Shown here piece by piece: positions 15,093 through 35,841 of a DNA stretch of 64,000 nt (within the stretch, counting starts at the first letter, position 1; each line of letters starts with the position of its first letter). Source of the DNA: Lacinutrix jangbogonensis (GTDB lineage Bacteria > Bacteroidota > Bacteroidia > Flavobacteriales > Flavobacteriaceae); NCBI RefSeq assembly GCF_000797445.1, contig NZ_JSWF01000017.1:1-64000 (forward strand), written 5' to 3'. Below the pieces are notes generated by a model. It saw only the letters and a list, made by a program, of their open reading frames with translations, did not search any database and was not told the origin of the DNA. The position numbers were made by a program, and so were the translations under genes.

Positions 15093-17897
15093 ATGAATAG
15101 ATTTTATACCATGTTTTTACTTTTGTTTGGGTTCTGTAGTGTTTTTTATGCCCAAGAATTACCGCCTATTGAAAGCTATACAATAGATATTTATAATGCT
15201 GAGAATCAAAACTGGAATATATCTCAATCTGCAGATAAACACATCTATGTTGCCAATAATAAAGGTCTTTTAGAATTTAATGGTGAAAAATGGCAATTGT
15301 ATCCTTCTCCAAATCAAACAATATTGCGTTCTGTGCATGTTGTAGGAGATAAAATTTATACGGGATGTTATATGGATTTTGGTTATTGGGAACGCGATGC
15401 TTTTTCAATACTTAAATACAAATCTTTAGCTAATAAGGTAGAGAAACCTATAATAGAAGATGAGGAATTTTGGACTATTTTAAATTTTAGAGAATGGATT
15501 CTTTTTCAGTCTTTAAACAGAATTTATATTTACAACACTACAAATGATACTTTTAAAATTATAGAATCAGATTCTAAAATTATAAAAATGTATCAAATTG
15601 AAGATCAAATCTATTTTCAAAAAATTAATGAAGGCCTCTATACTATTAACAATGGAGAAGCAGTATTACTATCTAGTGATAATATTTTTAAAACAACAGA
15701 AGTCGTAGGTATATTTGGAAAAAGCAAAGATCTAATTGTACTTACAAATACAAGTGGATTCTATAAGCTTAATAACGAGAATCTAATACCATGGCAAACG
15801 CCATCTTCTAATATTTTAGACAACAAAACGATATACAGTAGTATACAACTAAGGGATAAAAGTTTTTTGTTGGGAACCATATCAAATGGTATGATTCATT
15901 TAAAAGAAAATGGAGAAGTTTTATATCAAATTAATCAAAACTCGGGCTTAATTAATAACACGGTTTTGTCTGCTTTCCAAGATAGGGAGGATAATATCTG
16001 GTTAGCCTTAGATAATGGCATAAACTGCATTAATATTAATTCTCCATTTCGAATTTATGAGGATAATAAAGGTAAAATTGGAACTACTTATGCTTCAGCT
16101 ATTTTTAATGATACGCTATATTTAGGTACAAATCAAGGTTTGTTTTATAAGGATTATAATAGCGAAGAGGAATTTAAGTTTATTAAAGGTACTAATGGTC
16201 AGGTTTGGTGTTTAGTAGAAATAGATAATCAACTATTTTGTGGTCATAACAGCGGAACTTTTTTAATAAATAACTCAAAAGCCAAACTTATTTCTAATAT
16301 CCAAGGCACCTGGGTTTTGAAAAAAATTCCAGAAAAACCTAATCATTTACTTCAGGGTAATTATAATGGTTTAAATGTTATTGAAAAATTAAATGAAAAT
16401 TGGCAATTTAAAAACAAAATTCAAGGGTTTAATAGTTCTTCACGTTATTTTGAATTCTTAAATAAAAACCAAATTTTAGTTAGTCATGAGTATAAAGGTG
16501 TTTTTAATATAAAATTTAATAAAGATTTTACAGAAGTTACTTCTGTAGTAATAGATTCAACCGCAAATAAAGGTTTATACTCTAGCTTAATTAAATATAA
16601 GAATGACTTGCTTTACACTTATAAAAAAGGTGTTTTTAAGTACAACCATGCTAATAAAAAGTTTAGAAGAGATTCAGTATTAAGTCAATTATTTAATTCA
16701 GATAATTTTATATCTGGAAAATTAATACATAACAGTAAAACGGATAAGTTATGGGGTTTTTCAGATAAGAAAATAACCTATATATCTTCAGGCGGATTAA
16801 GTAAAAAACCTGTTTTGAATAGTATATCTTTGCCTAATAAACTTAGGAAAAATATAACAGGTTTCGAAAACATTACAGCAATTACAAACGATAATTATTT
16901 GTTTGGAACCTCTAAAGGTTATGCTGTAGTAAGCCTTTCTAAGCTAAAGAAAACATCTTACGAAATAGAAATAAGTAGCATTAAAAACAGTAAAAAGGAT
17001 GGTGAATTTAGTGCAATAGATAGAACTAGTCAAAGCGAATTTGAAAACAAACATAATAATATTTCCTTTTCGTTTAGTGTACCAGAATATTCTAAATATT
17101 TGGTATCAGAATACCAATACCAACTTAAAGGATTTCATGAACCATGGAGTAAATGGACCACAAATTCAACACATATATTCGAAAACTTGCCATATGGAGA
17201 TTATAGTTTTAACGTTAAAGCCAGAGTAGGTGGTGTTATAACTAAAAATGTTGCTTGGTATAGTTTTACAATACAAAAACCGTGGTACTTATCTAACTTA
17301 ATGTTAGTCCTTTACATTATTATATTTATTTCATTGTCATTTTTAACGCATACATTTTATAAAAGATATTATAAAAAACAGCGTGAAGCCATCTTTTTAA
17401 AGACTAATAGAGAACTAGAATTAAAAGAATTAGAGAATAAGCAACAGTTAATGAGTTTTAATAATGAAAAATTAAAACAAGACATTGAGGGTAAAAATAG
17501 AGAGCTTGCTATATCTACTATGAGCTTGATAAAAAAGAATGAGTTTTTAAATACTATTAAAATCGAGCTTAATAATAAGGATGCAAGTACTAATATTAAA
17601 TCTGTTATTAAAATTATTGATAAAAACATAAACAATACAGACGATTGGAAATTCTTCCAAGAAGCTTTTAATAATGCAGATAAAGATTTTCTAAAGAAAT
17701 TAAAAACAGAGCACAGCGCGTTAACTCCTAACGATTTAAAATTATGTGCATATCTAAGGTTAAATCTATCTTCTAAAGAAATAGCTCCTTTGTTAAATAT
17801 CTCTCCTAGAAGTGTAGAAGTTAAACGATACCGTTTACGAAAAAAAATGAATTTACCTCACGAAACTAGCTTAGCAAACTACATCATCGAATTGTAG
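15093..17897 (+). CDS. Membrane-tethered beta-propeller sensor with LuxR-type HTH (glucan regulator)
   Basis: The 934-residue protein has a signal peptide (ends FYAQ), then two-component-regulator propeller repeats up to about residue 640 (DREDNIWLALDNGIN is a canonical blade motif), a Y_Y_Y domain at about 655-730 (YQYQLKGFHEPWSKWTTN), one transmembrane helix near 735-755, a coiled coil at about 760-860, and a C-terminal helix-turn-helix (LRLNLSSKEIAPLLNISPR). No histidine kinase or receiver domain is present. It probably senses glucan fragments in the periplasm and acts directly on DNA from the membrane. It sits immediately upstream of the glucan-degrading genes and is the best candidate for binding the repeated ACCACAACA sites. 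Confidence 0.88.
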   Translation: MNRFYTMFLLLFGFCSVFYAQELPPIESYTIDIYNAENQNWNISQSADKHIYVANNKGLLEFNGEKWQLYPSPNQTILRSVHVVGDKIYTGCYMDFGYWERDAFSILKYKSLANKVEKPIIEDEEFWTILNFREWILFQSLNRIYIYNTTNDTFKIIESDSKIIKMYQIEDQIYFQKINEGLYTINNGEAVLLSSDNIFKTTEVVGIFGKSKDLIVLTNTSGFYKLNNENLIPWQTPSSNILDNKTIYSSIQLRDKSFLLGTISNGMIHLKENGEVLYQINQNSGLINNTVLSAFQDREDNIWLALDNGINCININSPFRIYEDNKGKIGTTYASAIFNDTLYLGTNQGLFYKDYNSEEEFKFIKGTNGQVWCLVEIDNQLFCGHNSGTFLINNSKAKLISNIQGTWVLKKIPEKPNHLLQGNYNGLNVIEKLNENWQFKNKIQGFNSSSRYFEFLNKNQILVSHEYKGVFNIKFNKDFTEVTSVVIDSTANKGLYSSLIKYKNDLLYTYKKGVFKYNHANKKFRRDSVLSQLFNSDNFISGKLIHNSKTDKLWGFSDKKITYISSGGLSKKPVLNSISLPNKLRKNITGFENITAITNDNYLFGTSKGYAVVSLSKLKKTSYEIEISSIKNSKKDGEFSAIDRTSQSEFENKHNNISFSFSVPEYSKYLVSEYQYQLKGFHEPWSKWTTNSTHIFENLPYGDYSFNVKARVGGVITKNVAWYSFTIQKPWYLSNLMLVLYIIIFISLSFLTHTFYKRYYKKQREAIFLKTNRELELKELENKQQLMSFNNEKLKQDIEGKNRELAISTMSLIKKNEFLNTIKIELNNKDASTNIKSVIKIIDKNINNTDDWKFFQEAFNNADKDFLKKLKTEHSALTPNDLKLCAYLRLNLSSKEIAPLLNISPRSVEVKRYRLRKKMNLPHETSLANYIIEL

Positions 17898-18182: not shown

Positions 18183-21100
18183 ATGAGGAAGAACATTTTT
18201 AGAATAATTCTAATTTTAATTTCTACATCATCAGTGTTTGCTCAAGCAGATAAGGTAACGGTTCAAAAGAACAGTGACGGTATGAAATTAGTAGTTAATG
18301 GAGAGGACTTCATGATTAATGGTATGAACTGGGGTTATGTTCCAATTGGTAAAAATTACTCATACAGTTTATGGAAACAATCAGATGATATTATTAAAGC
18401 TGCACTGGATAAAGAAATGGGGCTTTTAAAAAACATGGGTATTAATGCTATCAGACAGTATTCAGGAATACAACCAAAATGGGTTAAATATATATATGAA
18501 AATTACGGAATATATACCATGCTTAACCATTCATTTGGACGTTATGGATTAACTCTTGAAGGCAATTGGACTCCTGTAACAGATTATAGAGACGAAAAAA
18601 CTCAAGAAGTACTGTTGAATGAAATTAGTGAACTTGCCGAGGAATTTAAAAATACACCAGGTTTATTAATGTTTTTATTAGGAAACGAAAATAACTATGG
18701 TTTGTTTTGGGCTGGAGCTGAAACTGAAGATTTCCCAGATGATAAAGAGAAAGAAAGAGCGATGGGAGAGTTGCGAGGAAGACCAATGTATAAGTTAATG
18801 AATGACGCTGCATTAAAAATAAAAGCTATAAACGGTGGTTCTCATCCTGTAGCGATCTGTAATGGAGATTTGTTATTTGTGGATATCGTTGCAGAAGAAT
18901 GTAAAGACATAGATATATATGGTACTAATATGTACAGAGGAGTTTCATTTGGAGATGCCTTTACACGCGTTAGAGATGAATTAGATAAACCAATTATGTT
19001 TACTGAGTTTGGAGCCGATGCTTTTAATGCATTAACCAATGAAGAAGACCAAAAGGCCCAAGCATATTATATGGTTGGAAACTGGAAGGAGATTTATGAA
19101 AATGCTGCCGGTATTGGCAAAGCAAATAATTCAATTGGAGGATTTACATTTCAATTTAGTGATGGTTGGTGGAAAATTGGGCAAACAAAAAATTTAGATA
19201 TTCATGATAATGATGCAACTTGGTCCAATGGAGGTTATCCTCATGATGTTGAGAATGGGTCAGATAATATGAATGAAGAATGGTTTGGCGTCTGTGCTAA
19301 AGGACCAACTGATTCAAGAGGTCTTTTTGATTTATATCCAAGAGCAGCATATTATTCTTTAAAAGAAGCACATCAAATTAATCCTTATATCGATGGTGTA
19401 GATCAAAACTTTATTAGCAACCATTTTAGTAATATTAATTTAATGGATGCCGTTTTAAGAGCGCGTGGAGATAAAGCTGCTTTAGGGAGTACCAGTGATA
19501 AAATTCGTTTTAGTAATTTAAGAGCTGAGTTTACAACGTTTAATACAGGTGGAAGCTTAATAACGACACCAGAAACTGCAGATCCTAATAATCAGGTATA
19601 TCCTAATCAATTAGGTTTCGATCATATGCAATCTTATTTTATTGGAGTAGAAGGTAATCCTGCAGCAAATATGCGAGCAGAGGTAAACTTCAACATACTA
19701 GGAAATGTAGCAGAGAACCCTATAGATGAGATTTTTTATGAAAATAGAGGAAGACGGCTTGATCTTGATGTTACTACAGAAGAAGGCAGTGTAACCATAG
19801 CAGATCCAAATAGAGTACAAGTTTATAATGCAGAGTTCGAATGGAAAACTAAGGATGCAGATGTTAGAGGTTTTTATAGAACAGGACATTACCACTGGCA
19901 ATATGAAGGCGATTTCTTTGGCTTGTACCCAGAAGCAAATTATGGACCAAACTTGGATATCTATAATGGTGATATTTTAGGTATTGAAATAGATGGAAAA
20001 GGATCATTAAATGGTTTAAAAGCAGCGTTTGGACCACAATTGTGGTGGGGAGCAAACCCAACAATGTTGTTGAAATACAGGCGTAAAATAGCAAATTGGG
20101 AAGTTACTGGTATCTATCACAGAGATGTAGAAACAGAACTAAAATTTGACGAAGCTGGACGTCGTGTATTAAATGCGAATCAAGTATCGAGTGGTATAAT
20201 TCCAGGATGGCCAACAGAAAGAGGAACTATTGTTATCGAAAGAGACTTCGGTAAATTCGGATTGTCTTTAGGTGGTATTTGGGCTGGAGATCCTTTAAAC
20301 GGGAGTACTTATCAGGATTTTACAGGTACATCAGGTAATTATGTTATATACGAAGACAAAGTAAATAACGATGATAATTGGGGTGGTAAAGCAAAAATAA
20401 CGTACCAAGGCGGTAAATTTAACATGTATGCTCAAGGCGCAATAATGGGCTTAGTAGCTAATGGTGGTGCAGATGCAACACAAACATTTACAGGTTGGAA
20501 ATTAAAAGATAGTGGTAGCGGTAACCAAACTAATGTTTTAGCAGGTTTTACATATTCATTAGGTGACTTTCAAATTGCACCAAATTTTTTATGGCAAAAA
20601 CCATTAGTAGCAGCTATGCCCAATGATTTAGTTGATGGACCAGGAAGATTAAGAAATTTTATTGATGATCCATTTGCTGTAAGAGGTAATAGAGAGACTA
20701 CCGCTGGTGAAATGTTATTTACTTACGATCCTACACCAGGAACTTGGATGTATGCATGGGATAATGATAGAGCGGAAGATGCCAAATTCGCAATGAATCT
20801 TGGTTTTGTATATCGTCACCTCCCAACAGCTCAAGATGCTCATATTGGGTTTTTAGCTAATAGACAGTTTTTTGCATTTCCTAATGCAGCTCCCGCAAAA
20901 GATCTTTGGGAAGCAAGCTCTAGAATAGTTTCAAAAATAAGTCCAGAATTAGGTCTAATAGGGAATTTTTATGTAGGAAACGCTCAAGCAAATGGTGATA
21001 GTGATAGAACAATTAATCGTTTTGGAGGTGATATTAGAGTTATTTATAAGAAATTTAAAATAGTGCAACAACTAAAATTAAACGATTGGGGACCATTTGA

Positions 21101-21368
21101 TTATCATCGTGATTTTAACCTTACATATCCTGTGCAAGCAATGCTAGATATATCTACAACTTTAGGGAAGCCAGGTTGGTTTGTTTTACCAAGTACAAAA
21201 ATTGGAATTCGCGGAACTTGGCGTTCAATGGATCAAAATTCACCAAGGTATTCACCTAACCAAACAGCTTCAGAATTTTCTACTGTACCTACATTAAGTC
21301 CAGTTGGATTTCCTGATGGTAATGAATGGGAAATTAGAACCTATATACATATTAACATTGGAAATTAA
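18183..21368 (+). CDS. TIM-barrel glycosidase (clan GH-A) fused to a predicted outer-membrane beta-barrel
   Basis: The 1061-residue product has a signal peptide ending SVFAQ. Residues about 25-400 read as a clan GH-A TIM barrel: FMINGMNWGYVP, LLGNENNYG with acid/base Glu169, and MFTEFGAD with nucleophile Glu275. It resembles GH2-C or GH72-like beta-glucan-active enzymes more than any single family I can name. Residues about 440-1061 show alternating polar/hydrophobic strands rich in Trp, Tyr and Phe (FGKFGLSLGGIWAG, KFAMNLGFVYRHLP, WEIRTYIHINIGN), as in an outer-membrane barrel. It is first in an operon with two binding lipoproteins and GH16. It may cleave and admit glucan fragments at the outer membrane, which would matter because no SusC is encoded here. 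The barrel assignment is inference. Confidence 0.75.
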   Translation: MRKNIFRIILILISTSSVFAQADKVTVQKNSDGMKLVVNGEDFMINGMNWGYVPIGKNYSYSLWKQSDDIIKAALDKEMGLLKNMGINAIRQYSGIQPKWVKYIYENYGIYTMLNHSFGRYGLTLEGNWTPVTDYRDEKTQEVLLNEISELAEEFKNTPGLLMFLLGNENNYGLFWAGAETEDFPDDKEKERAMGELRGRPMYKLMNDAALKIKAINGGSHPVAICNGDLLFVDIVAEECKDIDIYGTNMYRGVSFGDAFTRVRDELDKPIMFTEFGADAFNALTNEEDQKAQAYYMVGNWKEIYENAAGIGKANNSIGGFTFQFSDGWWKIGQTKNLDIHDNDATWSNGGYPHDVENGSDNMNEEWFGVCAKGPTDSRGLFDLYPRAAYYSLKEAHQINPYIDGVDQNFISNHFSNINLMDAVLRARGDKAALGSTSDKIRFSNLRAEFTTFNTGGSLITTPETADPNNQVYPNQLGFDHMQSYFIGVEGNPAANMRAEVNFNILGNVAENPIDEIFYENRGRRLDLDVTTEEGSVTIADPNRVQVYNAEFEWKTKDADVRGFYRTGHYHWQYEGDFFGLYPEANYGPNLDIYNGDILGIEIDGKGSLNGLKAAFGPQLWWGANPTMLLKYRRKIANWEVTGIYHRDVETELKFDEAGRRVLNANQVSSGIIPGWPTERGTIVIERDFGKFGLSLGGIWAGDPLNGSTYQDFTGTSGNYVIYEDKVNNDDNWGGKAKITYQGGKFNMYAQGAIMGLVANGGADATQTFTGWKLKDSGSGNQTNVLAGFTYSLGDFQIAPNFLWQKPLVAAMPNDLVDGPGRLRNFIDDPFAVRGNRETTAGEMLFTYDPTPGTWMYAWDNDRAEDAKFAMNLGFVYRHLPTAQDAHIGFLANRQFFAFPNAAPAKDLWEASSRIVSKISPELGLIGNFYVGNAQANGDSDRTINRFGGDIRVIYKKFKIVQQLKLNDWGPFDYHRDFNLTYPVQAMLDISTTLGKPGWFVLPSTKIGIRGTWRSMDQNSPRYSPNQTASEFSTVPTLSPVGFPDGNEWEIRTYIHINIGN

Positions 21369-21381
21369 AAAAAAATAGAAA

Positions 21382-22803
21382 ATGAAAAATTCTAAAAATT
21401 TATACTTAAAAAAGATTTCAGTAGTTATGGCAATTTTGCTTACTACAGTTATTAGTTGCGAAAGAGAACTATCTGAAGATGCCGTATTTGCAGAATTTGG
21501 AAGCAATGCAGAGATTTATACAGATGCGCCTGTAGGTCTTACTGACCAATTCTTTACTTCTTTCGATCCAAATCAAGGCGCTAATACGCAAGGTTTTGGC
21601 ACAGATAATAATGAAGCCTATCTAGGTTCTAGTTCTATACGTATAGATGTGCCGCAGCCAAACGATCCCGATGGTGGATTTATTGGTGGTATTTTTCTGG
21701 ACCGCGGACAAGGAAGAAATCTAACGGGTTACGATGCTTTAACATTCTGGGCAAAAGGATCAACAACAGCAATAATTGAAGCAGGGTTTGGAACAGATTT
21801 TAGTGAAGATAAGTTTGTTGTAGGTACAAAGAACGTAGTGCTTTCTACAGATTGGCGAAAAATTATTATTCCAATTCCAGACGAATCAAAACTTATTCAA
21901 GAAAAAGGAATGTTTTTATTCTCTGCAGGTACGCAAAGTACTGGTGGAGTTGGTTATACGTTTTGGATGGACGAATTAAAATTTGAAAAATTAGGAACTA
22001 TAGCGCAACCAAGACCATCCATTTTTAATGGAGAAGATGTTGTACAAACAGCCTTTCTAGGAGCACCTGTTCCTGTGACCGGTTTAACAGAAACATTTAA
22101 TTTGGGTTCTGGAGTTAACCAAACAGTGAATGTAGCGCCCTCATATTTTACATTTAAGTCTTCAGATACAAACATCGCTTTAGTAAGTGAACGTGGTGTA
22201 GTTACTATAGTTGGTATTGGTAGTGCGGTAATTACTGCTAGTATTAATGGAGTCCCAGCAGAAGGTTCTTTAACGGTTAATTCAGGAGGGAATTTTGATT
22301 TAGCGCCAACTCCAACGAGAGATCCTGGTACTGTAATTTCTATTTATAGTGATCATTATACTAATGTTCCTGTAGATTTTTATAATGGATTTTGGGAACC
22401 TTTCCAAACGACTGAATCTGCAGATTTTATAGCAAATGGAGATAATATTTTAGGATATACTAATTTTAATTTTGTTGGTAATCAGTTCGCTAATCCAACT
22501 GTCGATGCTACAGTGAAGTCTAATCTTCACCTTAATATGTATATCCCAGATAATATACCAGCAAACCTAGATTTTTTAATTTCAGTTGTAGATTTTGGCG
22601 CTGACGGTGTTGATGGAGGTACGGATGATTTAAGACAACAAATATTTTTTAATAGCTCAGATTTTGTTGCCGATGAATGGAGTACTTTGGAAATTCCTCT
22701 AACCTTGGCAAACAGGAGTCATATAGGTCTTATTATATATGAAAATGTTAACGGGTCTCCTTTAACTGATTTTTATTTAGATAACATTTATTTCTACGAA
22801 TAA
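21382..22803 (+). CDS. Glycan-binding lipoprotein with Ig-like (Big2) domain
   Basis: The 473-residue lipoprotein (signal ..LLTTVISCERE) has two carbohydrate-binding-like beta-sandwiches. One is at about 50-205 (LTGYDALTFWAKG.., FWMDELKF) and one at about 315-473 (VPVDFYNGFWEPFQTT.., DFYLDNIYFYE). They flank a Big2-like Ig domain (SSDTNIALVSERGVVTIVGIGSAVITA) at about 235-305. No catalytic signature is seen. It starts 13 nt after the barrel fusion gene and 29 nt before GH16, so it is in the same operon. A surface glucan-binding role comparable to SusE/SGBP proteins is inferred from position and domain shape. Confidence 0.75.
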   Translation: MKNSKNLYLKKISVVMAILLTTVISCERELSEDAVFAEFGSNAEIYTDAPVGLTDQFFTSFDPNQGANTQGFGTDNNEAYLGSSSIRIDVPQPNDPDGGFIGGIFLDRGQGRNLTGYDALTFWAKGSTTAIIEAGFGTDFSEDKFVVGTKNVVLSTDWRKIIIPIPDESKLIQEKGMFLFSAGTQSTGGVGYTFWMDELKFEKLGTIAQPRPSIFNGEDVVQTAFLGAPVPVTGLTETFNLGSGVNQTVNVAPSYFTFKSSDTNIALVSERGVVTIVGIGSAVITASINGVPAEGSLTVNSGGNFDLAPTPTRDPGTVISIYSDHYTNVPVDFYNGFWEPFQTTESADFIANGDNILGYTNFNFVGNQFANPTVDATVKSNLHLNMYIPDNIPANLDFLISVVDFGADGVDGGTDDLRQQIFFNSSDFVADEWSTLEIPLTLANRSHIGLIIYENVNGSPLTDFYLDNIYFYE

Positions 22804-22832: not shown

Positions 22833-23669
22833 ATGAAAAATAAAACGAATACTAAAAAAGGTTTAGTGAAAGCTGCTTTTATGTCTTTTATTGTAGTGTT
22901 GTTTTTAACGACTACAAATTGTTCATCAGATGGAACTCAAATCGTAGCAAACTTCACGGAAATTGTGATGCAAGATGAGTTTAATACAGAAGGAGCACCT
23001 AATAATGCGCTTTGGACTTATGATGTAGGGACCGGTGATAATGGTTGGGGAAATAATGAGCTTCAGTATTACACAGACCGCACTGAAAACGTAAAAGTTG
23101 AAAACGGTTATTTGTTAATTACAGCAAATGAGGAAGAATATAACGGGTCTTCTTATACGTCTTCTAGACTTTTAACGAATGGTTTATTCGATCAACAATA
23201 TGGTCGTTTTGAGGCACGCATAAGATTGCCTTACGGTCAAGGTATGTGGCCTGCATTTTGGTTACTTGGAGAAAACTGTGATGAAGTTATCTGGCCTCAA
23301 TGTGGTGAAATAGATATTATGGAATATCGTGGTCAAGAGCCAACTAAAGTTCATGGTTCTGTTCATGGTCCTGGTTATTCTGGAGGTGAAGCGATTACAA
23401 AAACGTACACATTAGAAAACGATCGTTTCGATACAGGTTTTCACGTCTTTGGTATAGAATGGACACCAGATTATATTAATTATTATGTAGATGATAAATT
23501 GTATAATCAAATTACACCGGCAGATGTTACTGGTGAATGGGTTTTTAATCAACCATTTTACATTATTATCAATCTTGCGGTAGGTGGATCATTTGTAGGG
23601 TCTCCAAATGCAGAAACGGTTTTTCCACAAACCATGTTAATCGATTACGTAAGAGTTTATAAAAATTAA
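22833..23669 (+). CDS. GH16 endo-beta-1,3-glucanase (laminarinase), lipoprotein
   Basis: The 278-residue enzyme carries the GH16 catalytic motif GEIDIMEYRG (Glu159 nucleophile, Asp161, Glu164 acid/base), with WPAFWLLG before it and HVFGIEWTPDYINYYVDD after it. The methionine bulge between Asp161 and Glu164 is typical of laminarinases (EC 3.2.1.39) rather than lichenases. A lipoprotein signal (LTTTNCSSD) places it at the cell surface or in the periplasm. It is a compact single-domain form; binding modules are supplied by the lipoproteins encoded on either side. Confidence 0.93.
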   Translation: MKNKTNTKKGLVKAAFMSFIVVLFLTTTNCSSDGTQIVANFTEIVMQDEFNTEGAPNNALWTYDVGTGDNGWGNNELQYYTDRTENVKVENGYLLITANEEEYNGSSYTSSRLLTNGLFDQQYGRFEARIRLPYGQGMWPAFWLLGENCDEVIWPQCGEIDIMEYRGQEPTKVHGSVHGPGYSGGEAITKTYTLENDRFDTGFHVFGIEWTPDYINYYVDDKLYNQITPADVTGEWVFNQPFYIIINLAVGGSFVGSPNAETVFPQTMLIDYVRVYKN

Positions 23670-23692: not shown

Positions 23693-25828
23693 ATGAAACA
23701 ATTATTTAACAAAACTAAAAGTATTTTAATATTACTCCTAGCCTTATCTTTTTTAGGTTGTGAAGAAGACGATGTTACATTACCTCAAGTAGTAGCTGGT
23801 TTTACACATACTATTGATTTTGATACCAGAACGGTTACTTTTTTAAACACTTCTACAAATGCAACTGCTTATTCATGGGGATTTGGTGATGGAACAGTTT
23901 TAGATGAAGTAAACCCAATTAAGAAATATCCTATTGGATCGTTTACAATTGTACTTACAGCATCAAATGTTGCTGGTGCTTCTGATACGTATACAGACAC
24001 AATAATCTTTTTAGATACAGAAATCCCTTTAATTACGTTAATTGGAGATGCTACAGTAAATGTAACTTTAGATGATGCTTACACAGATGCTGGAGCATCA
24101 GCTCTTGATGCAGTAGATGGAGATCTAACTGCAAATATTGTAGTTGGTGGTGATACCGTTGATACTGCTGTAGAAGCGATTTATACAATTACTTATGATG
24201 TAACAGATACACAAGGTAATGAAGCTATACAAGTTACAAGAACAGTTAATGTTGCCGCTGTAGTATGTACTGATGAGATTGCGGGTTCTATAAGTGCTGC
24301 GGATTTAAATTTAACATTCATGACAGACCCAACAGCTAGTATTACTAATGATGGAGCCGATTTTAGTTGGATTACTAACCCAGATTCTGATAACACAGTA
24401 AACCCTTCATGTAAAGTTGCACAAATTACAAAGCAAGGTGTTAATCCATGGGACAATACGCAAATAGATTTAGATGCTAAATTAGATTTTACTACAAACA
24501 CTGGTTTAAAAATAAAAGTATGGTCAGCAATTCCTAATACTGAAGTGAGATTAAAACTAGAAGAAATTGGGAATTCAAGTAATAATGTAGAACAATTTTT
24601 AACAACATCTGTTACTAATGGTTGGGAAGAATTAACATTCCCATACACAAGTGCAGATAGCGATAAGTTTGATAAAATTGTAATGTTCTTTGATCTAAAT
24701 GCAGATAATTCAGACACGTACTATTTTGATGATTTAATGCTTTATGGAACAGGATCAGGAGGAACTGGAGGGGGTTGTGTTGCTGAAACAGCACAGTCGT
24801 TAAATGCCGTTGACATTAACATAACATTTATGAGTGATCCTGCAGCAGTAGGAAGCGGTGTAACGGTTATTGAAGATAACGCAACTTATGAGTATGTCGA
24901 TAATCCAGATTTTAGTACTGCAGTAAATAACTCCTGTAAAGTAGGTAAAGTAACAAAAGCTGGTGTAGAGTCTTGGGATAATATTCAGATTGATTTTGCC
25001 GATAAAATTACGTTTACAGACGGTTCTAATTTTACTATAAAAGTATTTTCACCAGTCTCTGGTTATAAAGTTACTTTTAAATTAGAAGATCAAGCTGATG
25101 GTAATATAAATACTGAAGTGTCTTCTACAGTAAGTACATTAAGCACTAACGCATGGGAGGAACTAACGATTCCATTTGGTGCTGCAGATAGCGCTAAATA
25201 TGATAAGCTTGTAATATTCTTTGATTTAGCAGGAGCTGCAAATACAAATGCGTATTATTTCGATGATATAAAATTAAACCTTGGCTCTGGCGGAGGCGGC
25301 GGAGGCGGTACTTGTCCAACACCTCCAGCAGGTGAATTTATTGGCGATGGAGATTTTGAAGTGAATGCAGATTGCTGGGTAGTATTCGATAATGGTGGTT
25401 CTGCTACCATATCGACTACAGTTAGTAATGGTGGTGGTACTAATTCAGGTCAAATACAAACCGCTCCAGGAGGAAACCCTGGCTTGAAACAAGAAAGGTT
25501 TGGAATGGGTACAATATTGCCTAATACAACTTATGTTGCTACTTTTGATATAAAAGCGAGTGCGGCAGATATGTTAGCAAATGGAGCTGTTTTTCAAGCG
25601 TTTACTTTTTCTGAACCAGCTGATGGATCAGGATTACCTGCTGCTCAACACGTCCTTATCGCTGGAGATGCAAATGTAACAACTACTTGGGTGCAAAGAT
25701 CGTATACATTCACTACTGCTGCTAATGTTGATGGTGGAGTATCACTATTATTTGAATTGGTTTGTGGAGGAGTAACTGGATGTACTGGTACTATTAATAT
25801 TGATAATGTCTCTATAACGGCACAGTAA
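23693..25828 (+). CDS. Multidomain PKD/CBM-type glycan-binding lipoprotein
   Basis: The 711-residue lipoprotein (..LALSFLGCEEDD) contains a PKD domain at about 30-110 (YSWGFGDGTVLDEVNP), a DUF5011-like Ig domain at about 112-190 (VTLDDAYTDAGASALDAVDG), and two homologous beta-sandwiches at about 195-350 and 365-530. Both sandwiches include SCKV..K.GV..WDN.QID and YYFDD. They are followed by a Gly-rich linker and a CBM4/9-like domain at about 545-711 (GEFIGDGDFEVNADCWVVF, GTINIDNVSITAQ). No catalytic motif is evident. It ends the first operon, with a strong terminator following. It is probably a surface protein that captures beta-1,3-glucan for the GH16 enzyme; ligand specificity is inferred from neighbours. 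Confidence 0.78.
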   Translation: MKQLFNKTKSILILLLALSFLGCEEDDVTLPQVVAGFTHTIDFDTRTVTFLNTSTNATAYSWGFGDGTVLDEVNPIKKYPIGSFTIVLTASNVAGASDTYTDTIIFLDTEIPLITLIGDATVNVTLDDAYTDAGASALDAVDGDLTANIVVGGDTVDTAVEAIYTITYDVTDTQGNEAIQVTRTVNVAAVVCTDEIAGSISAADLNLTFMTDPTASITNDGADFSWITNPDSDNTVNPSCKVAQITKQGVNPWDNTQIDLDAKLDFTTNTGLKIKVWSAIPNTEVRLKLEEIGNSSNNVEQFLTTSVTNGWEELTFPYTSADSDKFDKIVMFFDLNADNSDTYYFDDLMLYGTGSGGTGGGCVAETAQSLNAVDINITFMSDPAAVGSGVTVIEDNATYEYVDNPDFSTAVNNSCKVGKVTKAGVESWDNIQIDFADKITFTDGSNFTIKVFSPVSGYKVTFKLEDQADGNINTEVSSTVSTLSTNAWEELTIPFGAADSAKYDKLVIFFDLAGAANTNAYYFDDIKLNLGSGGGGGGGTCPTPPAGEFIGDGDFEVNADCWVVFDNGGSATISTTVSNGGGTNSGQIQTAPGGNPGLKQERFGMGTILPNTTYVATFDIKASAADMLANGAVFQAFTFSEPADGSGLPAAQHVLIAGDANVTTTWVQRSYTFTTAANVDGGVSLLFELVCGGVTGCTGTINIDNVSITAQ

Positions 25829-25861: not shown

Positions 25862-25898
25862 AATACGGTCTTAATTTGTGTTAAGACCGTATTTTTTT
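25862..25898 (+). terminator. Rho-independent terminator after the first glucan operon
   Basis: AATACGGTCTTAA and TTAAGACCGTATT form a perfect 13-bp stem with a 6-nt loop, followed by seven T. An in-frame GTG at 25878 lies inside this hairpin and is therefore not accepted as the start of the next gene. Confidence 0.9.
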
Positions 25899-25907
25899 AC
25901 TACAAAA

Positions 25908-28900
25908 ATGAAGTTAAATTTATATTTAACAAACCTAAAAGAGAATATATTGTTAATGAAACAGGTAATAAATAATTTGGAAAAAGAAAACATAGCAATG
26001 GCTCAAGTTGTTATTGATAACGAGGACTATTTTAAGATTTCTAATAACGACGAAATCCGCCCTTTTTTTATGAGCATTGTAAGTGACTCTAACCACTGGA
26101 TGTTTATATCTAGTAACGGAGGACTAACTGCAGGGCGTAAAAATTCAGAATACGCTTTATTTCCATATTATACAGACGACAAAATCACAGAGTCTGCAGA
26201 TATAACAGGTAACAAATCAATCTTCAAAGTTCAAAAAGGAGATCAAGAGTTAATGTGGGAACCATTAGCTATTAGGTCATTAGGTAGATATAGTACCACT
26301 CAAAACTTATATAAAAATAAGTTTGGTAACAAAATTATTTTTGAGGAAATCAATCATGATTTAGAATTAATATTTAGATACCAATGGAGTTCAACGAATA
26401 AGTTTGGTTTTGTAAAAAAATCTAAATTAGTTAATACCTCAAAAGAATCTGTAAAAGTGACACTTTTAGATGGTATTCAAAATATAATGCCAGCGAGTAT
26501 TGGTAGCGATACCCAAAATCAATCTAGTAATTTGGTTGATGCATACAAACGGAATGAGTTAGAAGAGTCTACTGGGCTTGGTATCTATGCGCTTAGCGCT
26601 ATTCTCGTCGATAAAGCAGAGGCTAGCGAAGCACTAAGAGCTAATGTCGTTTGGTCTTTAGGTTTAGACAATCCAAAACATTTATTGTCTTCTTTACAAG
26701 TTAATAACTTTAGATCACGTCATGCTATAACACAAGAGGTTGATATAAAAGCTGAAAAAGGTGCTTATTTTGTGTCTACAGAAATTGAATTATTGGCAGA
26801 TTCGTCTAAAGAATGGATGCTTGTGGCTAATGTTAATCAAAATCATTCAGATATAGCATTATTGTCAAAACAGATAAGAGAAGATAATTCCTTAATTGAT
26901 GAAATTAATGAAAATATAGCTTTTGGAACGAAACGACTAGTGGAGTTAAATGCTGCGTCTGACGCTATTCAAGTTACTGCAGATAGTCTTAGAGATACAC
27001 GTCATTTTGCGAATACATTATTCAACATTATGCGTGGTGGTATTTTTGATGATAGTTATCAAATTGAAAAATGGGATTTTATAAATTATCTTGTTAATGC
27101 TAATAAAAAGGTAGCAAGAACATCTGAAAGTGTATTAAAAACGCTTCCAGAGGTATTCTCTTTATCAGAAATACAGAAAATCGCATATAATAGTGGTGAT
27201 AAAAACTTTAGACGCTTATGTTTAGAGTATATGCCTTTAAAATTTAGTCGTCGTCACGGTGACCCAAGTCGACCTTGGAATAAATTTTCTATTAATACAC
27301 GAAATGAAGTTGATGGTTCAAAAATTTTGGACTATGAAGGAAATTGGCGTGATATTTTCCAAAATTGGGAAGCATTAGCGCACTCTTACCCTGAGTTTAT
27401 AGAAAGTATGATTCATAAATTTTTGAATGCGTCTACTTTTGACGGCTATAATCCATATCGTGTTACCAAAGGAGGTTTCGATTGGGAAGCTATTGAACCA
27501 GACGATCCATGGTCTTACATTGGATATTGGGGAGATCACCAAATTATTTATTTACTTAAGTTTTTAGAGTTTATTAATAACCATAAACCGGGTAAATTAG
27601 AAAGTTTCTTTACAAAAGATTTATTTGTATATGCAAATGTGCCATATAAGATAAAGCCATACAAAGATTTATTAAAAAACCCTAAAGATACTATCGTTTT
27701 TGATGATGATTTAGACCATAAAATTAATGAAAATCGTGAGCAATTAGGAGCTGATGGTGCTTTACTTCGAGATGAGAATAGATTCATTATAAAAGCAAAT
27801 TTTGTAGAGAAAATACTCGCAACCACTTTAGCAAAGTTATCAAACTTTATTCCTGAAGGAGGCATCTGGATGAATACGCAACGTCCAGAATGGAACGATG
27901 CTAACAATGCTTTGGTAGGCAATGGTGTATCTATGGTTACGCTTTGCTATTTGCGAAGATTTTTTAATTTCTTTGAAGATTTACTTGCTAAAACAAATGT
28001 TAACGAAGTAGAAGTTTCTAACGAAATATTTAACTTCTTCAATAGCGTTTTAGAAACTTTTGAAAATAACAAAATGTTATTATCAGCATCAATTAGTGAT
28101 AGTGATAAGAAATCAATATTAGATAGTTTAGGAAAAGCAGGTAGTGATTTTAGAACCAATATCTACGACCATGCCTTTTCGGGAAGAAAAACACCACTTT
28201 CTATAGATAGGTTAAAAGATTTTATATCAATTAGTAAATCTTTTTTAGAACATTCAATTAGAGCAAACAAACGTTCAGATAATTTATATCATGCATACAA
28301 TTTAATGACCGTTAATGCAGACGACTCTGTTTCAATCTCTTATTTAAGTGAAATGTTAGAAGGCCAAGTAGCTGTTTTAAGTTCTGGTTATTTAAATGCG
28401 ACACAAACGCTTGATGTATTAAATGCTTTAAAACAAAGTAAACTTTTTAGAGCAGATCAGTACAGCTATATGTTGTATCCAAATAAAGAACTCAAAGGGT
28501 TTTTAGATAGAAACACCATCTCTGAAGATGCTGTTTTATCTTCAAAATTATTACAAGAATTATTAAGTGATGGAAATGTTCAAATCATTGAAAAAGATGT
28601 GAACGGGGAATACCATTTCAATGGAAACTTTAAAAATGCAAGTGATGTATCTGCAGCTTTAGAAAATCTTTCAGAAACTAAGTATCAGGCGCTTTTAGAA
28701 TCTGATACCCCAAAAATATTACAAACTTTTGAGGAGGTTTTTAATCACAAAGCGTTTACAGGTAGATCAGGTACATTTTATGGATATGAAGGATTAGGTT
28801 CTATATATTGGCATATGGTTTCTAAATTATTATTGGCAGTGCAAGAATGCTGTATAAAAGCTGTTAATGATGATGAAAATGAAGTTATAGTTGGTCATTT

Positions 28901-29408
28901 ATTAGAACATTTTTACGAAATTAACGAAGGTATTGGTGTGCATAAAACGCCGCTATTATATGGTGCTTTTCCAACAGATCCATACTCGCACACACCAGGA
29001 GGAAAAGGAGCACAACAACCAGGAATGACAGGTCAGGTAAAAGAAGATATTTTAAGTCGCTTTGGAGAATTAGGAGTCTTTGTGAAAGAAGGAAAACTAT
29101 TTTTTAATCCATGTCTTTTAAGAACAGAAGAATTTTTTACTAAAGCTGCTAGTTTTGAATACATTGATATTTTCAAGGAAAGAAGAAATATTCAAATGGA
29201 AAAAGGGTCATTAGGGTTTACGTATTGTCAAGTGCCTATAGTGTATCAGATTTCAGAAAATGACAGATTAGAAATAACTTTTAAAGATGGAAATTCTAAA
29301 ATAGTTGATGGTTTAACACTTGATCAAACAACAAGTCAAAAGGTGTTTAATCGTTTGGGTGAAATTCAAAATATAATAGTAAACATTAAAGAAAAGCATT
29401 TAAAATAA
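25908..29408 (+). CDS. Beta-1,3-glucan phosphorylase, GH149-like
   Basis: The 1166-residue protein has no signal peptide and should be cytoplasmic. It resembles the GH94/GH149 phosphorylase fold: an N-terminal beta-sandwich (MFISSNGGLTAGRKNSEYAL), then an (alpha/alpha)6 barrel with PDDPWSYIGYWGDHQI and PEWNDANNALVGNG, in which Asp664 matches the general acid of this clan. A late TPGGKGAQQPGM loop fits the phosphate-binding side. Its length (over 1100 residues) and the GH16/GH17/GH30 neighbours point to GH149, which phosphorolyses beta-1,3-oligoglucans to glucose-1-phosphate. I chose ATG at 25908 because earlier codons lie in the terminator; ATG at 25998 is possible. It begins a second operon with the GH17 gene 11 nt downstream. 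Confidence 0.82.
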   Translation: MKLNLYLTNLKENILLMKQVINNLEKENIAMAQVVIDNEDYFKISNNDEIRPFFMSIVSDSNHWMFISSNGGLTAGRKNSEYALFPYYTDDKITESADITGNKSIFKVQKGDQELMWEPLAIRSLGRYSTTQNLYKNKFGNKIIFEEINHDLELIFRYQWSSTNKFGFVKKSKLVNTSKESVKVTLLDGIQNIMPASIGSDTQNQSSNLVDAYKRNELEESTGLGIYALSAILVDKAEASEALRANVVWSLGLDNPKHLLSSLQVNNFRSRHAITQEVDIKAEKGAYFVSTEIELLADSSKEWMLVANVNQNHSDIALLSKQIREDNSLIDEINENIAFGTKRLVELNAASDAIQVTADSLRDTRHFANTLFNIMRGGIFDDSYQIEKWDFINYLVNANKKVARTSESVLKTLPEVFSLSEIQKIAYNSGDKNFRRLCLEYMPLKFSRRHGDPSRPWNKFSINTRNEVDGSKILDYEGNWRDIFQNWEALAHSYPEFIESMIHKFLNASTFDGYNPYRVTKGGFDWEAIEPDDPWSYIGYWGDHQIIYLLKFLEFINNHKPGKLESFFTKDLFVYANVPYKIKPYKDLLKNPKDTIVFDDDLDHKINENREQLGADGALLRDENRFIIKANFVEKILATTLAKLSNFIPEGGIWMNTQRPEWNDANNALVGNGVSMVTLCYLRRFFNFFEDLLAKTNVNEVEVSNEIFNFFNSVLETFENNKMLLSASISDSDKKSILDSLGKAGSDFRTNIYDHAFSGRKTPLSIDRLKDFISISKSFLEHSIRANKRSDNLYHAYNLMTVNADDSVSISYLSEMLEGQVAVLSSGYLNATQTLDVLNALKQSKLFRADQYSYMLYPNKELKGFLDRNTISEDAVLSSKLLQELLSDGNVQIIEKDVNGEYHFNGNFKNASDVSAALENLSETKYQALLESDTPKILQTFEEVFNHKAFTGRSGTFYGYEGLGSIYWHMVSKLLLAVQECCIKAVNDDENEVIVGHLLEHFYEINEGIGVHKTPLLYGAFPTDPYSHTPGGKGAQQPGMTGQVKEDILSRFGELGVFVKEGKLFFNPCLLRTEEFFTKAASFEYIDIFKERRNIQMEKGSLGFTYCQVPIVYQISENDRLEITFKDGNSKIVDGLTLDQTTSQKVFNRLGEIQNIIVNIKEKHLK

Positions 29409-29419
29409 AAAGCAACACC

Positions 29420-30709
29420 ATGGCTAATAAAGTAATCATATTATTTGTGTTAATCACTTTATCTATGATGTCATGCAATGGAATTAAAGAAGACAAACAG
29501 TCCAATAAAACCCCAAAAAAAGTGACAGCCAAAGATATATTAGGAAACCCAGATTATTTAGCAATTTCTTATGGAGGTTATCGCCAAAAGGCAAGAGATA
29601 GTCAGCCTTCAATTAAAGAGCTTAAAGACGATATTAAAATATTGTCTGCAATGGGAATAAAAGTGTTGCGAACGTATAATGTGCAACCAAAATTACCACA
29701 CGCATCTAATATATTAGAAGCTATTACAGAGCTTAAAAAAGAAGACCCAACTTTCGAAATGTATGTCATGCTCGGGGCTTGGATAGATTGCCTTAATGCA
29801 TGGACAGATTTACCTGTGAACCATGACGTTGAAAGTCCACAAAATGAAGGAGAAATTGCGAGAGCAGTAGCTCTGGCTAATCAATATCCAGATATTGTAA
29901 AAGTAATTGCTGTTGGTAATGAAGCAATGGTAAAATGGGCAACTAGTTATTTTGTTCAGCCCGATGTTATTCTAAAATGGGTAAATCATTTACAGGCTCT
30001 AAAAACGTCAGGTAAATTACCTAAAGACTTATGGATAACAAGTTCAGACGATTTTGCTTCTTGGGGAGGAGCGGATGATTTCTATAAAGTTGAGGACTTA
30101 GAAAATATAATAAAATCTGTCGATTATATTTCTATGCACACTTATCCTTATCATAATACACATTATAATCCGGAATTTTGGGGAATTCCAGAAACAGATT
30201 TTCAACTTTCTGAAGAAGAAAAAATAAATAATTCAATAAAACGGGCCATAAAATTCTCACAGCGTCAAGTAGACAGTGTAACCAATTATATGAAAAGTTT
30301 AGGCGTTAATAAACCAATACATATTGGAGAATCAGGTTGGGCCTCAGTTTCTAAAGGCTTTTATGGAGATAATGGTTCTAGGGCTACAGACGAATATAAA
30401 CAAGGTTTGTATTATAAACTAATGCGTGAATGGACTAATAAAGCGGGCATATCTTGCTTTTATTTTGAAGCGTTTAACGAGCAATGGAAAGATGCTCTGC
30501 ATCCAAACGGATCAGAAAATCATTTTGGACTATTTACTATAGAGGGTAAAGCAAAATATCCACTTTGGGATTTAGTAGATCTGGGTGTTTTTAAAGGATT
30601 AACTAGAAATGGAAATCCAATTACTAAAACATATAATGGCGATAAAAATGAATTAATGGAAACGGTTAAAATTCCACCAACAATTCATGAAGTTATGGCA
30701 CATCAATAG
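29420..30709 (+). CDS. GH17-like beta-1,3-glucanase, lipoprotein
   Basis: The 429-residue lipoprotein (..LSMMSCNGI) is a TIM-barrel enzyme with GH17-type catalytic sites: AVGNEAMV (acid/base Glu168) and HIGESGWAS (nucleophile Glu304). ISYGGYRQKARDSQPS and IKVLRTYN fit the first strands of bacterial GH17. The lipid anchor puts it at the surface or in the periplasm, unlike the two later GH17 domains of the locus. It probably cuts beta-1,3-glucan or laminari-oligosaccharides, and transglycosylation is possible in this family. It follows the phosphorylase by 11 nt and is ended by a terminator at 30721. Confidence 0.87.
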   Translation: MANKVIILFVLITLSMMSCNGIKEDKQSNKTPKKVTAKDILGNPDYLAISYGGYRQKARDSQPSIKELKDDIKILSAMGIKVLRTYNVQPKLPHASNILEAITELKKEDPTFEMYVMLGAWIDCLNAWTDLPVNHDVESPQNEGEIARAVALANQYPDIVKVIAVGNEAMVKWATSYFVQPDVILKWVNHLQALKTSGKLPKDLWITSSDDFASWGGADDFYKVEDLENIIKSVDYISMHTYPYHNTHYNPEFWGIPETDFQLSEEEKINNSIKRAIKFSQRQVDSVTNYMKSLGVNKPIHIGESGWASVSKGFYGDNGSRATDEYKQGLYYKLMREWTNKAGISCFYFEAFNEQWKDALHPNGSENHFGLFTIEGKAKYPLWDLVDLGVFKGLTRNGNPITKTYNGDKNELMETVKIPPTIHEVMAHQ

Positions 30710-30794: not shown

Positions 30795-32285
30795 ATGAAA
30801 CTAACAAAATACGTAATCTGTACACTATTAGCATTCACGATGAGCTGTAAAGAAACTAAAGCACCAAATTTAAAAGTAACTGTTTTTGAAACATCTGAAA
30901 GTGGAAATAGTTTAACCCAACTTACCGATTTTTCTTCAGATGTTGCAACAGATACTATAAAACTGCTTCCAAATAAAAAATTGCAAACCATAACTGGTTT
31001 TGGTGGCGCATTTACCGAGTCTTCAGCCTATTTACTCAATCGTTTGAGTAAGAAAAATCGTGATACTATTATAAATGCTTATTTCGCAAAAGATGGCGCT
31101 AACTACTCATTAACTAGAACGCACATGAATTCTTGTGATTTTTCGTTAAGTCAATACTCATACTCACCTGTTGCAGATGATGTAAACTTAGAGCACTTCA
31201 CGATTAAAGATGATAAAGACGATTTAATTCCAATGATTAAAGATGCTATGGCAGCTTCAGAAGATGGTTTTAAAATCTTTGCTTCACCTTGGACAGCAGC
31301 ACCTTGGATGAAAGATAATAACGAATGGGTTGGTGGAAAGTTACTGCCAAAATATTATGATACTTGGGCATTATTCTTTTCGAAATATGTAGATGCTTAT
31401 AAAGCTGAGGATATAGATATTTGGGGTTTTACAGTAGAAAATGAACCACATGGCAACGGTAACAACTGGGAAAGTATGCACTTTACACCAGAAGAAATGA
31501 CCAATTTTGTGCAACACCATCTAGGTCCAAAATTAGAAGCTGATGGTCATGGAGATAAAATAATTTTAGGTTACGATCAAAACAGAGCTGGATTAAAAGA
31601 ATGGGTAGACTCAATGTATGCTACCGAAGAATCTTCAAAGTATTTTGATGGAACTGCCATACATTGGTACGAAAGCACATATGATGTTTTTCCAGAAGCA
31701 TTACAATACGCACATAATAAAGCACCAAAAAAATATTTAATAGAAACCGAAGGTTGCATTGATTCTCAAGTTCCAGAGTGGAAAAATGATGCTTGGTACT
31801 GGAAAAAAGAAGCTACAGATTGGGGATGGGATTGGGCTTCAGAAGAAGACAAACATTTACATCCAAAATACGCACCAGTAAATAGATATGCAAGAGACAT
31901 TATTGGTTGTCTTAACAATTGGGTAGATGGCTGGGTAGACTGGAACATGGTTTTAGACAGGCAAGGTGGGCCAAATTGGTTTAAAAACTGGTGTGTAGCG
32001 CCAATAATTGTAGATTCAGATGCAGACGAAGTGTATTTTACACCATTATATTATGTTATGGCTCATTTTAGTAAATACATACGTCCAGGTGCAGAAGTAT
32101 TTGAAGTAGAAAGTACAGATAAAGACCTACAAGTTGCAGCAGCAAAAAACCCCGATGGTTCAATTGCAGTCGTTGTATTTAACGAAGGTAAAACCGTTAA
32201 AACTTTCAATTTAGTATTAAATGATAAAAATATAAGTATAAAAGTAGATGCTCAGGCTTTGCAAACTATTGTGATAGCTAACTAA
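30795..32285 (+). CDS. GH30 beta-glucanase/glucosidase, lipoprotein
   Basis: The 496-residue lipoprotein (..AFTMSCKET) has the GH30 layout: QTITGFGGAFTESSAY at the first strand, SPWTAAPWMK, VENEP with acid/base Glu217, IETEGC with nucleophile Glu319, and a C-terminal beta-sandwich ending with DAQALQTIVIAN. GH30 enzymes next to GH16 and GH17 in marine flavobacteria remove beta-1,6-linked glucose branches of laminarin, and this is the likely role. A beta-1,3-glucosidase or glucosylceramidase activity of the same family cannot be excluded. The MFS-GH17 gene follows after 44 nt and is probably cotranscribed. Confidence 0.92.
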   Translation: MKLTKYVICTLLAFTMSCKETKAPNLKVTVFETSESGNSLTQLTDFSSDVATDTIKLLPNKKLQTITGFGGAFTESSAYLLNRLSKKNRDTIINAYFAKDGANYSLTRTHMNSCDFSLSQYSYSPVADDVNLEHFTIKDDKDDLIPMIKDAMAASEDGFKIFASPWTAAPWMKDNNEWVGGKLLPKYYDTWALFFSKYVDAYKAEDIDIWGFTVENEPHGNGNNWESMHFTPEEMTNFVQHHLGPKLEADGHGDKIILGYDQNRAGLKEWVDSMYATEESSKYFDGTAIHWYESTYDVFPEALQYAHNKAPKKYLIETEGCIDSQVPEWKNDAWYWKKEATDWGWDWASEEDKHLHPKYAPVNRYARDIIGCLNNWVDGWVDWNMVLDRQGGPNWFKNWCVAPIIVDSDADEVYFTPLYYVMAHFSKYIRPGAEVFEVESTDKDLQVAAAKNPDGSIAVVVFNEGKTVKTFNLVLNDKNISIKVDAQALQTIVIAN

Positions 32286-35812: not shown

Positions 35813-35820
35813 TATATTTG
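35813..35820 (+). promoter_or_regulatory. Predicted -7 box for the FG-GAP lipoprotein gene
   Basis: TATATTTG fits TAnnTTTG and ends 21 nt before the ATG at 35842. The in-frame TTG at 35818 is part of this box and is rejected as a start. Confidence 0.55.
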
Positions 35821-35841
35821 TATGTATATATTTTGACTAAA

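Follow-up and report, generated by a model that had tools for sequence, protein, structure and literature searches.

A stretch of 64,000 nucleotides from Lacinutrix jangbogonensis (contig NZ_JSWF01000017.1, positions 1 to 64,000; hereafter the window) carries a gene encoding a glycosidase joined to a predicted outer-membrane barrel. This fusion is real and conserved, a predicted outer-membrane module that apparently has not been described before. We consider it probable that it takes up laminarin-type beta-1,3-glucan, with a neighbouring lipoprotein as partner and the enzyme at the periplasmic exit. The source genome (4.02 Mb, 46 contigs; completeness 99.56, contamination 4.54) contains the window on its contig C17. 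Open reading frame (ORF) calls, Pfam, AlphaFold2 (AF2) models and Foldseek give the following architecture for the protein of 1061 amino acids (aa):

18183–21368, + strand: fusion ORF, 1061 aa, single frame, ATG start
Residues ~1–20: signal peptide, Sec type, read by eye
Residues ~25–400: TIM barrel of glycoside hydrolase (GH) clan GH-A
18687–18689, + strand: codon of Glu169, predicted acid/base, GNENNY motif, after TIM beta-4
19005–19007, + strand: codon of Glu275, predicted nucleophile, TEFGAD motif, beta-7
Residues ~408–434: helical linker, helices 408–416 and 420–434 before strand 1 in the AF2 model
Residues ~441–1060: outer-membrane barrel, predicted ~26 strands
19401–21365, + strand: barrel part used alone in searches, residues 407–1061, no Pfam family

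The predicted fold class of the C-terminal part is well supported. DSSP counts 26 long, antiparallel strands in both AF2 models, that of the whole fusion (predicted local distance difference test, pLDDT, 77; predicted template modelling score, pTM, 0.55) and that of the barrel alone (pLDDT 73.4, pTM 0.74). Comparison of the barrel-only model with the PDB by Foldseek gave 315 matches at E ≤ 0.001. Among the 50 listed, 49 are outer-membrane barrels, including MOMP, BtuB, PfeA, FepA, ZnuD, OccK, maltoporin, sucrose porin, AlgE, FimD, OmpF and others, as well as 6r2q_B and 4q35_A, whose titles do not name them as such; the remaining one is an artificial metalloprotein built on a scaffold that is not given. 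Strand hydropathy alternates with a mean of 2.17, compared with 1.53 ± 0.21 in shuffled strands (4 of 2000 shuffles as high). The outward faces are 27% aromatic (His included) and 6% charged, values that are partly circular because facing was assigned from the hydropathy of the window protein. Pfam recognizes no family in the C-terminal 655 residues (best E 0.053, below the cut-off) or in 60 barrel relatives (best E 0.045). The Plug domain PF07715 was detected neither in the fusion at E ≤ 0.01 nor in its barrel part at E ≤ 10, and it is absent from the families listed for the 60 relatives at E ≤ 1; a SusC from locus L033, our positive control, matches at 2.9e-21. Against the 22 strands of SusC, 26 are counted here in models of moderate confidence, and the top Foldseek matches include TonB receptors.

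Odd-numbered strands of the 26-strand model are followed by 13 loops of 6–38 aa, eight of them at least 23 aa, and even-numbered strands by 12 turns of 2–9 aa, with one exception of 20 aa. Long loops face outward in known outer-membrane barrels. By the same rule both barrel ends, and hence the enzyme domain, would lie on the periplasmic side, a sidedness that we regard as fairly supported. The prediction as a whole, a signal peptide and an antiparallel, amphipathic barrel whose periplasmic turns are short and whose outer loops are long, is that of an outer-membrane beta-barrel. Conservation across 66 sequences averages 0.81 at inward versus 0.71 at outward strand positions, with 0.79 in the enzyme domain, and invariant positions make up 29% of the inward set versus 12% of the outward one. 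Loops 5–6, 7–8 and 23–24 are conserved at 96–99%, loops 3–4, 9–10 and 25–26 at just 57–67%. Conserved inward positions and loops are more than a mere anchor would need. Among the periplasmic turns, conservation is 92–93% in the two longest (20 and 9 aa) and no higher than 78% in the remaining ten, in keeping with an enzyme that docks there.

The enzyme half matches PF02836 (GH2 TIM barrel) at residues 70–284 with 30.5 bits, above the curated cut-off of 21. This is the sole Pfam match of the fusion at E ≤ 0.01, and the same family is found at that threshold in all 14 members of the enzyme alignment. Glu169 and Glu275 are invariant both in the 66 fused sequences and in the 14-row alignment, which includes nine stand-alone enzymes 27–30% identical to the fusion. 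In the AF2 model Glu169 follows beta-4 (161–167) and Glu275 stands at the end of beta-7 (271–276). The domain is thus predicted to have the clan GH-A pattern of a (beta/alpha)8 barrel with the acid/base after beta-4 and the nucleophile at beta-7. The label ‘GH2’ fits by the TIM profile only, because neither Pfam nor the AF2 model shows the GH2 N-terminal jelly-roll and Ig-like domains; the TIM barrel directly follows the signal peptide. An earlier note, made from the letters of the window, had read the first ~400 residues as a GH-A domain with this catalytic pair, joined to an outer-membrane barrel of ~620 residues. Both halves and their union in one frame are borne out, and the soluble beta-sandwich modules that it named as the contrary outcome are not predicted in the C-terminal half.

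By top E-value, the Foldseek match of the full-length model is 9g4n (3e-12, with a low TM-score), entitled ‘LaGH157 E224A mutant in complex with laminaritriose’; PslG is also returned. No PDB sequence matched the single fusion sequence, and a profile of fused sequences only gave weak GH2/GH158 matches. The mixed profile of 14 relatives was needed to reach LaGH157-type chains: 9fz9 at 8.1e-15, a GH158 enzyme at 3.3e-14 and 9g4n at 8.5e-14. Both 9fz9 and 9g4n carry GH2 catalytic-domain protein names in the PDB file. The profile alignment pairs Glu275 with the Glu at chain position 224 in 9fz9, and 224 is also the number of the residue replaced in 9g4n; the likeness of the two entries suggests that 9fz9 is LaGH157. 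The substrate of the enzyme domain may be a laminarin-type beta-glucan. In 9/9 loci read, chosen among 33 weak matches, its stand-alone relatives adjoin GH17, GH30 or MFS-GH17 genes (MFS, major facilitator superfamily), an independent link between this enzyme family and laminarin. These relatives (L148–L156) are single-domain enzymes of ~340 aa from nine laminarin-type loci, seven of the nine with a lipobox recognized by eye, and may deserve their own CAZy family.

The fusion itself is well supported. Matches at E ≤ 1e-5 occur in 94 of the 299 genomes of our family sample, and 56 of the 299, the source genome included, match at least 1000 query residues in a single open frame, which rules out a single-genome oddity, an assembly artefact or a chance fusion. 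The window itself aside, these full-length matches are 63–75% identical (the copy in G062 is cut by a contig end); other matches are enzyme-only, broken or contig-cut copies and the 33 weak matches to the enzyme part. In a phylum sample of 395 Bacteroidota genomes, a barrel-only profile found 35 genomes, 33 of them with frames of 1028–1084 aa (that of G492 truncated where its contig ends) and two, G411 and G522, with fragments only. No unfused barrel or distant barrel relative was found at E ≤ 1e-5 in the 395 genomes. An enzyme-only profile (E ≤ 1e-60) found 43: the 33 fused, the two broken and eight without a barrel. The enzyme therefore occurs without the barrel; no barrel was observed on its own. 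Among the atypical copies, that of L158 (5382–7457; genome G199) has an enzyme 65% identical to ours fused to a GH16 domain, with no barrel there and SusCD upstream. In L159 (G258) the enzyme part is followed by no barrel, and two adjacent reverse-strand ORFs of equal length, 544 aa, suggest interruption by a mobile element. The fusion of L161, from the single-contig genome G061, is split into two overlapping frames in the TIM barrel, the break being near residue 286.

The gene that follows the fusion, 13 bases past its stop codon, encodes a lipoprotein that the earlier note had not noticed and that tracks the barrel, not the enzyme:

21382–22803, + strand: partner lipoprotein, 473 aa, lipobox VISC-ER by eye; N-terminal part resembling carbohydrate-binding modules (CBM) CBM11/CBM30, Big_2, C-terminal part

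A lipoprotein profile at E ≤ 1e-40 found 36 of the 395 Bacteroidota genomes. The 33 strong matches (E ≤ 1e-116) are exactly the 33 fused-barrel genomes, and the three weaker ones (G418, G432, G506) lie in genomes without the barrel. At E ≤ 1e-40 the lipoprotein was found in none of the eight enzyme-only and neither of the two broken-barrel genomes. Fisher p-values for the association, 3e-42 over 395 genomes and 3e-7 over the 43 with the enzyme, take no account of shared ancestry and serve for description only. We also read 80 named loci, the best of at least 565 confirmed stretches (590 candidates), over up to 10 kb to each side, some on short contigs. They were selected as best full-length matches, all 80 encode the fusion, and their counts give no rate. 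The lipoprotein is the next gene in 77 of the 78 testable ones; the 78th (L082) failed a start-distance cut only and has the gene too. Of 26 fused loci from other families, read over 14–20 kb (leaving aside two more on contigs <4 kb), 25 have it next to the fusion, and G434 has a full-length copy ~10 kb upstream. The pairing of barrel and lipoprotein is thus well supported. The lipoprotein is predicted to bind glucan and would be surface-exposed. Its CBM11/CBM30-like part is remote (CBM_11 in 1/10 members at 0.0027; PDB 2c24 and 1wmx at 0.004–0.005), an Ig-like Big_2 domain is present in 6/10, none of the ten has a SusD-family match at E ≤ 0.01, and the lipobox is usually followed, by eye, by acidic residues. 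In L180, L183, L185 and L194–L196 the lipoprotein frame is 781–849 aa long with extra partial matches, which suggests repeated binding units.

The surrounding genes are known laminarin machinery. From the fusion onward they are separated by gaps of 11–85 bases, and the order in the window is regulator, fusion, partner lipoprotein, then the genes listed here:

15093–17897, + strand: sensor-regulator with Y_Y_Y and LuxR-type helix-turn-helix domains, upstream of the fusion
22833–23669, + strand: GH16 lipoprotein (lipobox by eye), conserved third gene of the module
23693–25828, + strand: second glycan-binding lipoprotein (PKD, Ig-like, CBM4_9)
25878–29408, + strand: GH149 1,3-beta-D-glucan phosphorylase (NCBIfam 1813.5 bits, cut-off 1150)
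29420–30709, + strand: GH17 lipoprotein, in the FbGH17A/MlGH17A position of published clusters
30795–32285, + strand: GH30 lipoprotein, in the FbGH30 position
32330–34687, + strand: MFS-GH17 fusion of the FbGH17B type, known from PMC6246565
34725–35693, + strand: additional GH17

All three GH17 matches of the source genome sit in this locus. Relatives of these genes recur in the 80 named loci as follows: lipoprotein 78, GH16 76, regulator 70 (at most 1.2 kb upstream of the fusion in 52 of the 80), GH149 60, GH17 55, second glycan-binding lipoprotein 46, GH30 39 and MFS-GH17 25; GH16 lies at most 3.5 kb downstream of the fusion in 70/71 testable loci. No match to PF07715, PF07980, PF14322 or PF12771, searched genome-wide, falls on contig C17, as the earlier note had stated of SusC and SusD in this locus; in the strict sense, which requires a susC/susD pair in the locus, this is not a polysaccharide utilization locus (PUL). 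By profile, 59 of the 80 named loci show neither gene in the stretch read and two show one of them; of the 56 loci whose flanks both exceed 9 kb, 37 lack both and 19 have them. None of the 26 loci from other families matched, with a profile mostly of laminarin-type SusC that several large unassigned ORFs could escape. Fusion, lipoprotein and GH16 look like a constant core to which SusCD is an optional addition. Two details of the gene run may be added: the additional GH17 gene contains near its N-terminus (34772–34819) an in-frame 9-base tandem repeat of ~5 copies, of Ser-Glu-His type, and the run ends with a lipoprotein of FG-GAP/UnbV_ASPIC repeats (35818–39144), a relative of which also follows GH17 in L166.

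In the mechanism that we propose, the C-terminal ~26-stranded, plug-less barrel would form the pore. Outside it, the neighbouring lipoprotein would be a dedicated glucan-capturing partner, like SusD for SusC, and GH16 would act at the surface to trim the polymer. At the periplasmic pore exit, the N-terminal GH-A enzyme would cut the arriving glucan or oligosaccharide and so make entry one-way; the products would pass to the GH17 and GH30 lipoproteins, the inner-membrane MFS-GH17 fusion and cytosolic GH149. The earlier note had proposed a self-cleaving import pore for beta-glucan. Its glucan context stands, given the laminarin gene set around the fusion; ‘self-cleaving’ does not, as the loop lengths would place the enzyme in the periplasm, cutting glucan that leaves the pore. 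More tentatively, and with a probability that we would put below that of uptake as such, the module allows speculation about a second class of Bacteroidota outer-membrane glycan importer. Such an importer would combine a pore of ~26 strands, lacking a plug and independent of TonB, with a lid formed by the lipoprotein, and the glycan would be pulled in through hydrolysis by the covalently attached periplasmic glucanase rather than by proton-motive force.

Several observations weigh against uptake through the fused barrel. The AF2 models are of moderate confidence, so the strand count may be off, and the placing of the enzyme relative to the barrel cannot be read from them. Foldseek TM-scores are low for the barrel model (query TM 0.19–0.38), which leaves the fold class clear and no close template. 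Alternation is weak (below 1.0) in 8 of the 26 strands, and five of the 13 outer loops are short (6–11 aa). Two other genomes of the same genus in the family sample lack the fusion. SusC and SusD both occur in 19/80 named loci, in 16 of them between regulator and fusion, and 35/35 named genomes tested have SusD genes (1–44 each), so most hosts have another route. The source genome has 28 Plug matches and one SusC/SusD-like_2 pair, on contig C35 at about 142148–146776, in which a single PF12771 gene (below the cut-off for PF14322) stands beside a SusC-type receptor. Near this pair no carbohydrate enzyme was recognized in five scanned of the seven ORFs of at least 180 aa over 14 kb. The earlier note had suggested looking for such a pair with the same promoter motif and would have taken a co-regulated one as a refutation. 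The pair on C35 may or may not be co-regulated with the fusion; before the fusion, a Bacteroidetes promoter consensus has no full match, just three relaxed half-sites. Lack of SusCD, which that note had pointed out for this locus, does not define such loci, since 19 relatives have both genes and two more have one, and we reject a strict replacement of SusCD by the fusion on the same count. Equally unsupported is the idea that the barrel-less enzyme always comes with SusCD instead: SusCD lies near it in 2/8 phylum-sample genomes (G398, G176), several stretches being short, and in one family-sample genome (G199). Elsewhere in the source genome (C24; L146, 5756–8626) a VIT protein carries CarboxypepD_reg and Plug domains, apparently without a long barrel.

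These observations could be accommodated differently. If SusCD, encoded in the locus or elsewhere in the genome, did the main import, the barrel would be an accessory, general porin for small glucan oligosaccharides whose fused enzyme clears the periplasmic mouth. The loci that combine both systems, including those with SusCD between regulator and fusion, and the SusD genes of all tested hosts speak for this; we nevertheless think it unlikely, as 59 of the 80 named loci (short contigs included; 37 of the 56 with long flanks) and all 26 from other families show no SusC/SusD profile match in the stretch read, and in the source genome PF07980 is absent and SusD-like_2 is represented by one gene. 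The barrel could also be chiefly an anchor, as in type V autotransporters, whose passenger–linker–barrel order it shares; the two helices ahead of strand 1 would then thread the pore and the GH-A domain would be a surface laminarinase outside the cell. Domain order fits this display, but ~26 strands are predicted, not 12, Pfam finds no autotransporter domain, conservation of the inward positions and of several loops equals that of the enzyme, and the lipoprotein tracks the barrel rather than the enzyme. Such display is improbable.

We hold glucan export or turnover to be less plausible still, with a barrel secreting cell-made glucan and a glycosidase trimming it as in the AlgE, PgaA-PgaB and BcsC-BcsZ systems. 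Foldseek does return AlgE for the barrel and PslG for the full-length model, but the neighbours in many relatives are catabolic (GH149, GH17, GH30, GH16, MFS) and no polysaccharide synthase is among the Pfam matches of 15 scanned window genes. Published clusters of similar content are induced by laminarin (PMC6246565). A row of soluble beta-sandwich modules behind the enzyme, with no membrane barrel, would agree with the missing Pfam family and the weakly alternating strands; it can be practically discarded, being ruled out at the level of prediction by the AF2 strands, the Foldseek matches, the overall alternation and the (partly circular) composition of the outward faces. Uptake through the fused barrel is the reading that we retain.

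Among the storage glucans of algae laminarin is a major one, and SusCD is the system to which glycan uptake across the Bacteroidota outer membrane is usually ascribed. Should the module import glucan, calling loci by their SusCD pairs would underestimate uptake capacity, since the fusion is carried by 56/299 family and 33/395 phylum genomes (one copy per sample cut by a contig end). The module is also a direct test case for TonB-free import driven by an enzyme at the pore exit, and it is genetically simple, with a single gene each for fusion and lipoprotein and with SusCD present in some loci and absent from others.

Among known systems, SusCD transporters and utilisomes resemble the module in encoding an outer-membrane barrel and a lipoprotein side by side in a glycan locus with hydrolases. 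The fusion differs in having no Plug or CarboxypepD_reg match, a partner without a SusD match, a barrel without a Pfam family and a covalently fused enzyme. AlgE, PgaA/PgaB and BcsC/BcsZ are export barrels paired with a periplasmic glycosidase, but with separate genes or another layout, smaller barrels and a biosynthetic context. The GH157/GH158 beta-1,3-glucanases share the TIM fold, and the nucleophile of the fusion aligns with that of LaGH157, but they are remote (profile E ~1e-14) and have no barrel. Four laminarin loci of the SusCD type are mentioned in PMC6298971, SusC/D loci can contain GH2 and GH17 (PMC11345257), and GH149 occurs in clusters without susCD (PMC5827456). A literature search that excluded bioRxiv preprints and most subscription papers, and saw others in part, found no published report of the barrel or of its link to the lipoprotein. 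Published laminarin PULs, those of Formosa (PMC6246565) and Muricauda (PMC13188888), have largely the gene set seen here. The Muricauda paper names SGIU01000001, the contig of locus L062, and calls the fusion gene a ‘GH2 beta-glycosidase’, once a beta-1,6-glucosidase; in a term search of its main text ‘outer membrane’, ‘TonB’ and ‘porin’ gave no occurrence and ‘SusC’ one, in the reference list. The Formosa loci with GH16, GH17, GH30, GH149 and the MFS-GH17 fusion are laminarin-induced, and their GH17 and GH30 enzymes act on laminarin (PMC6246565). That MFS-GH17 protein, FbGH17B, likewise joins a glycosidase to a sugar transporter, within a locus of this type; unlike the barrel fusion, it belongs to the inner membrane and has already been described (PMC6246565).

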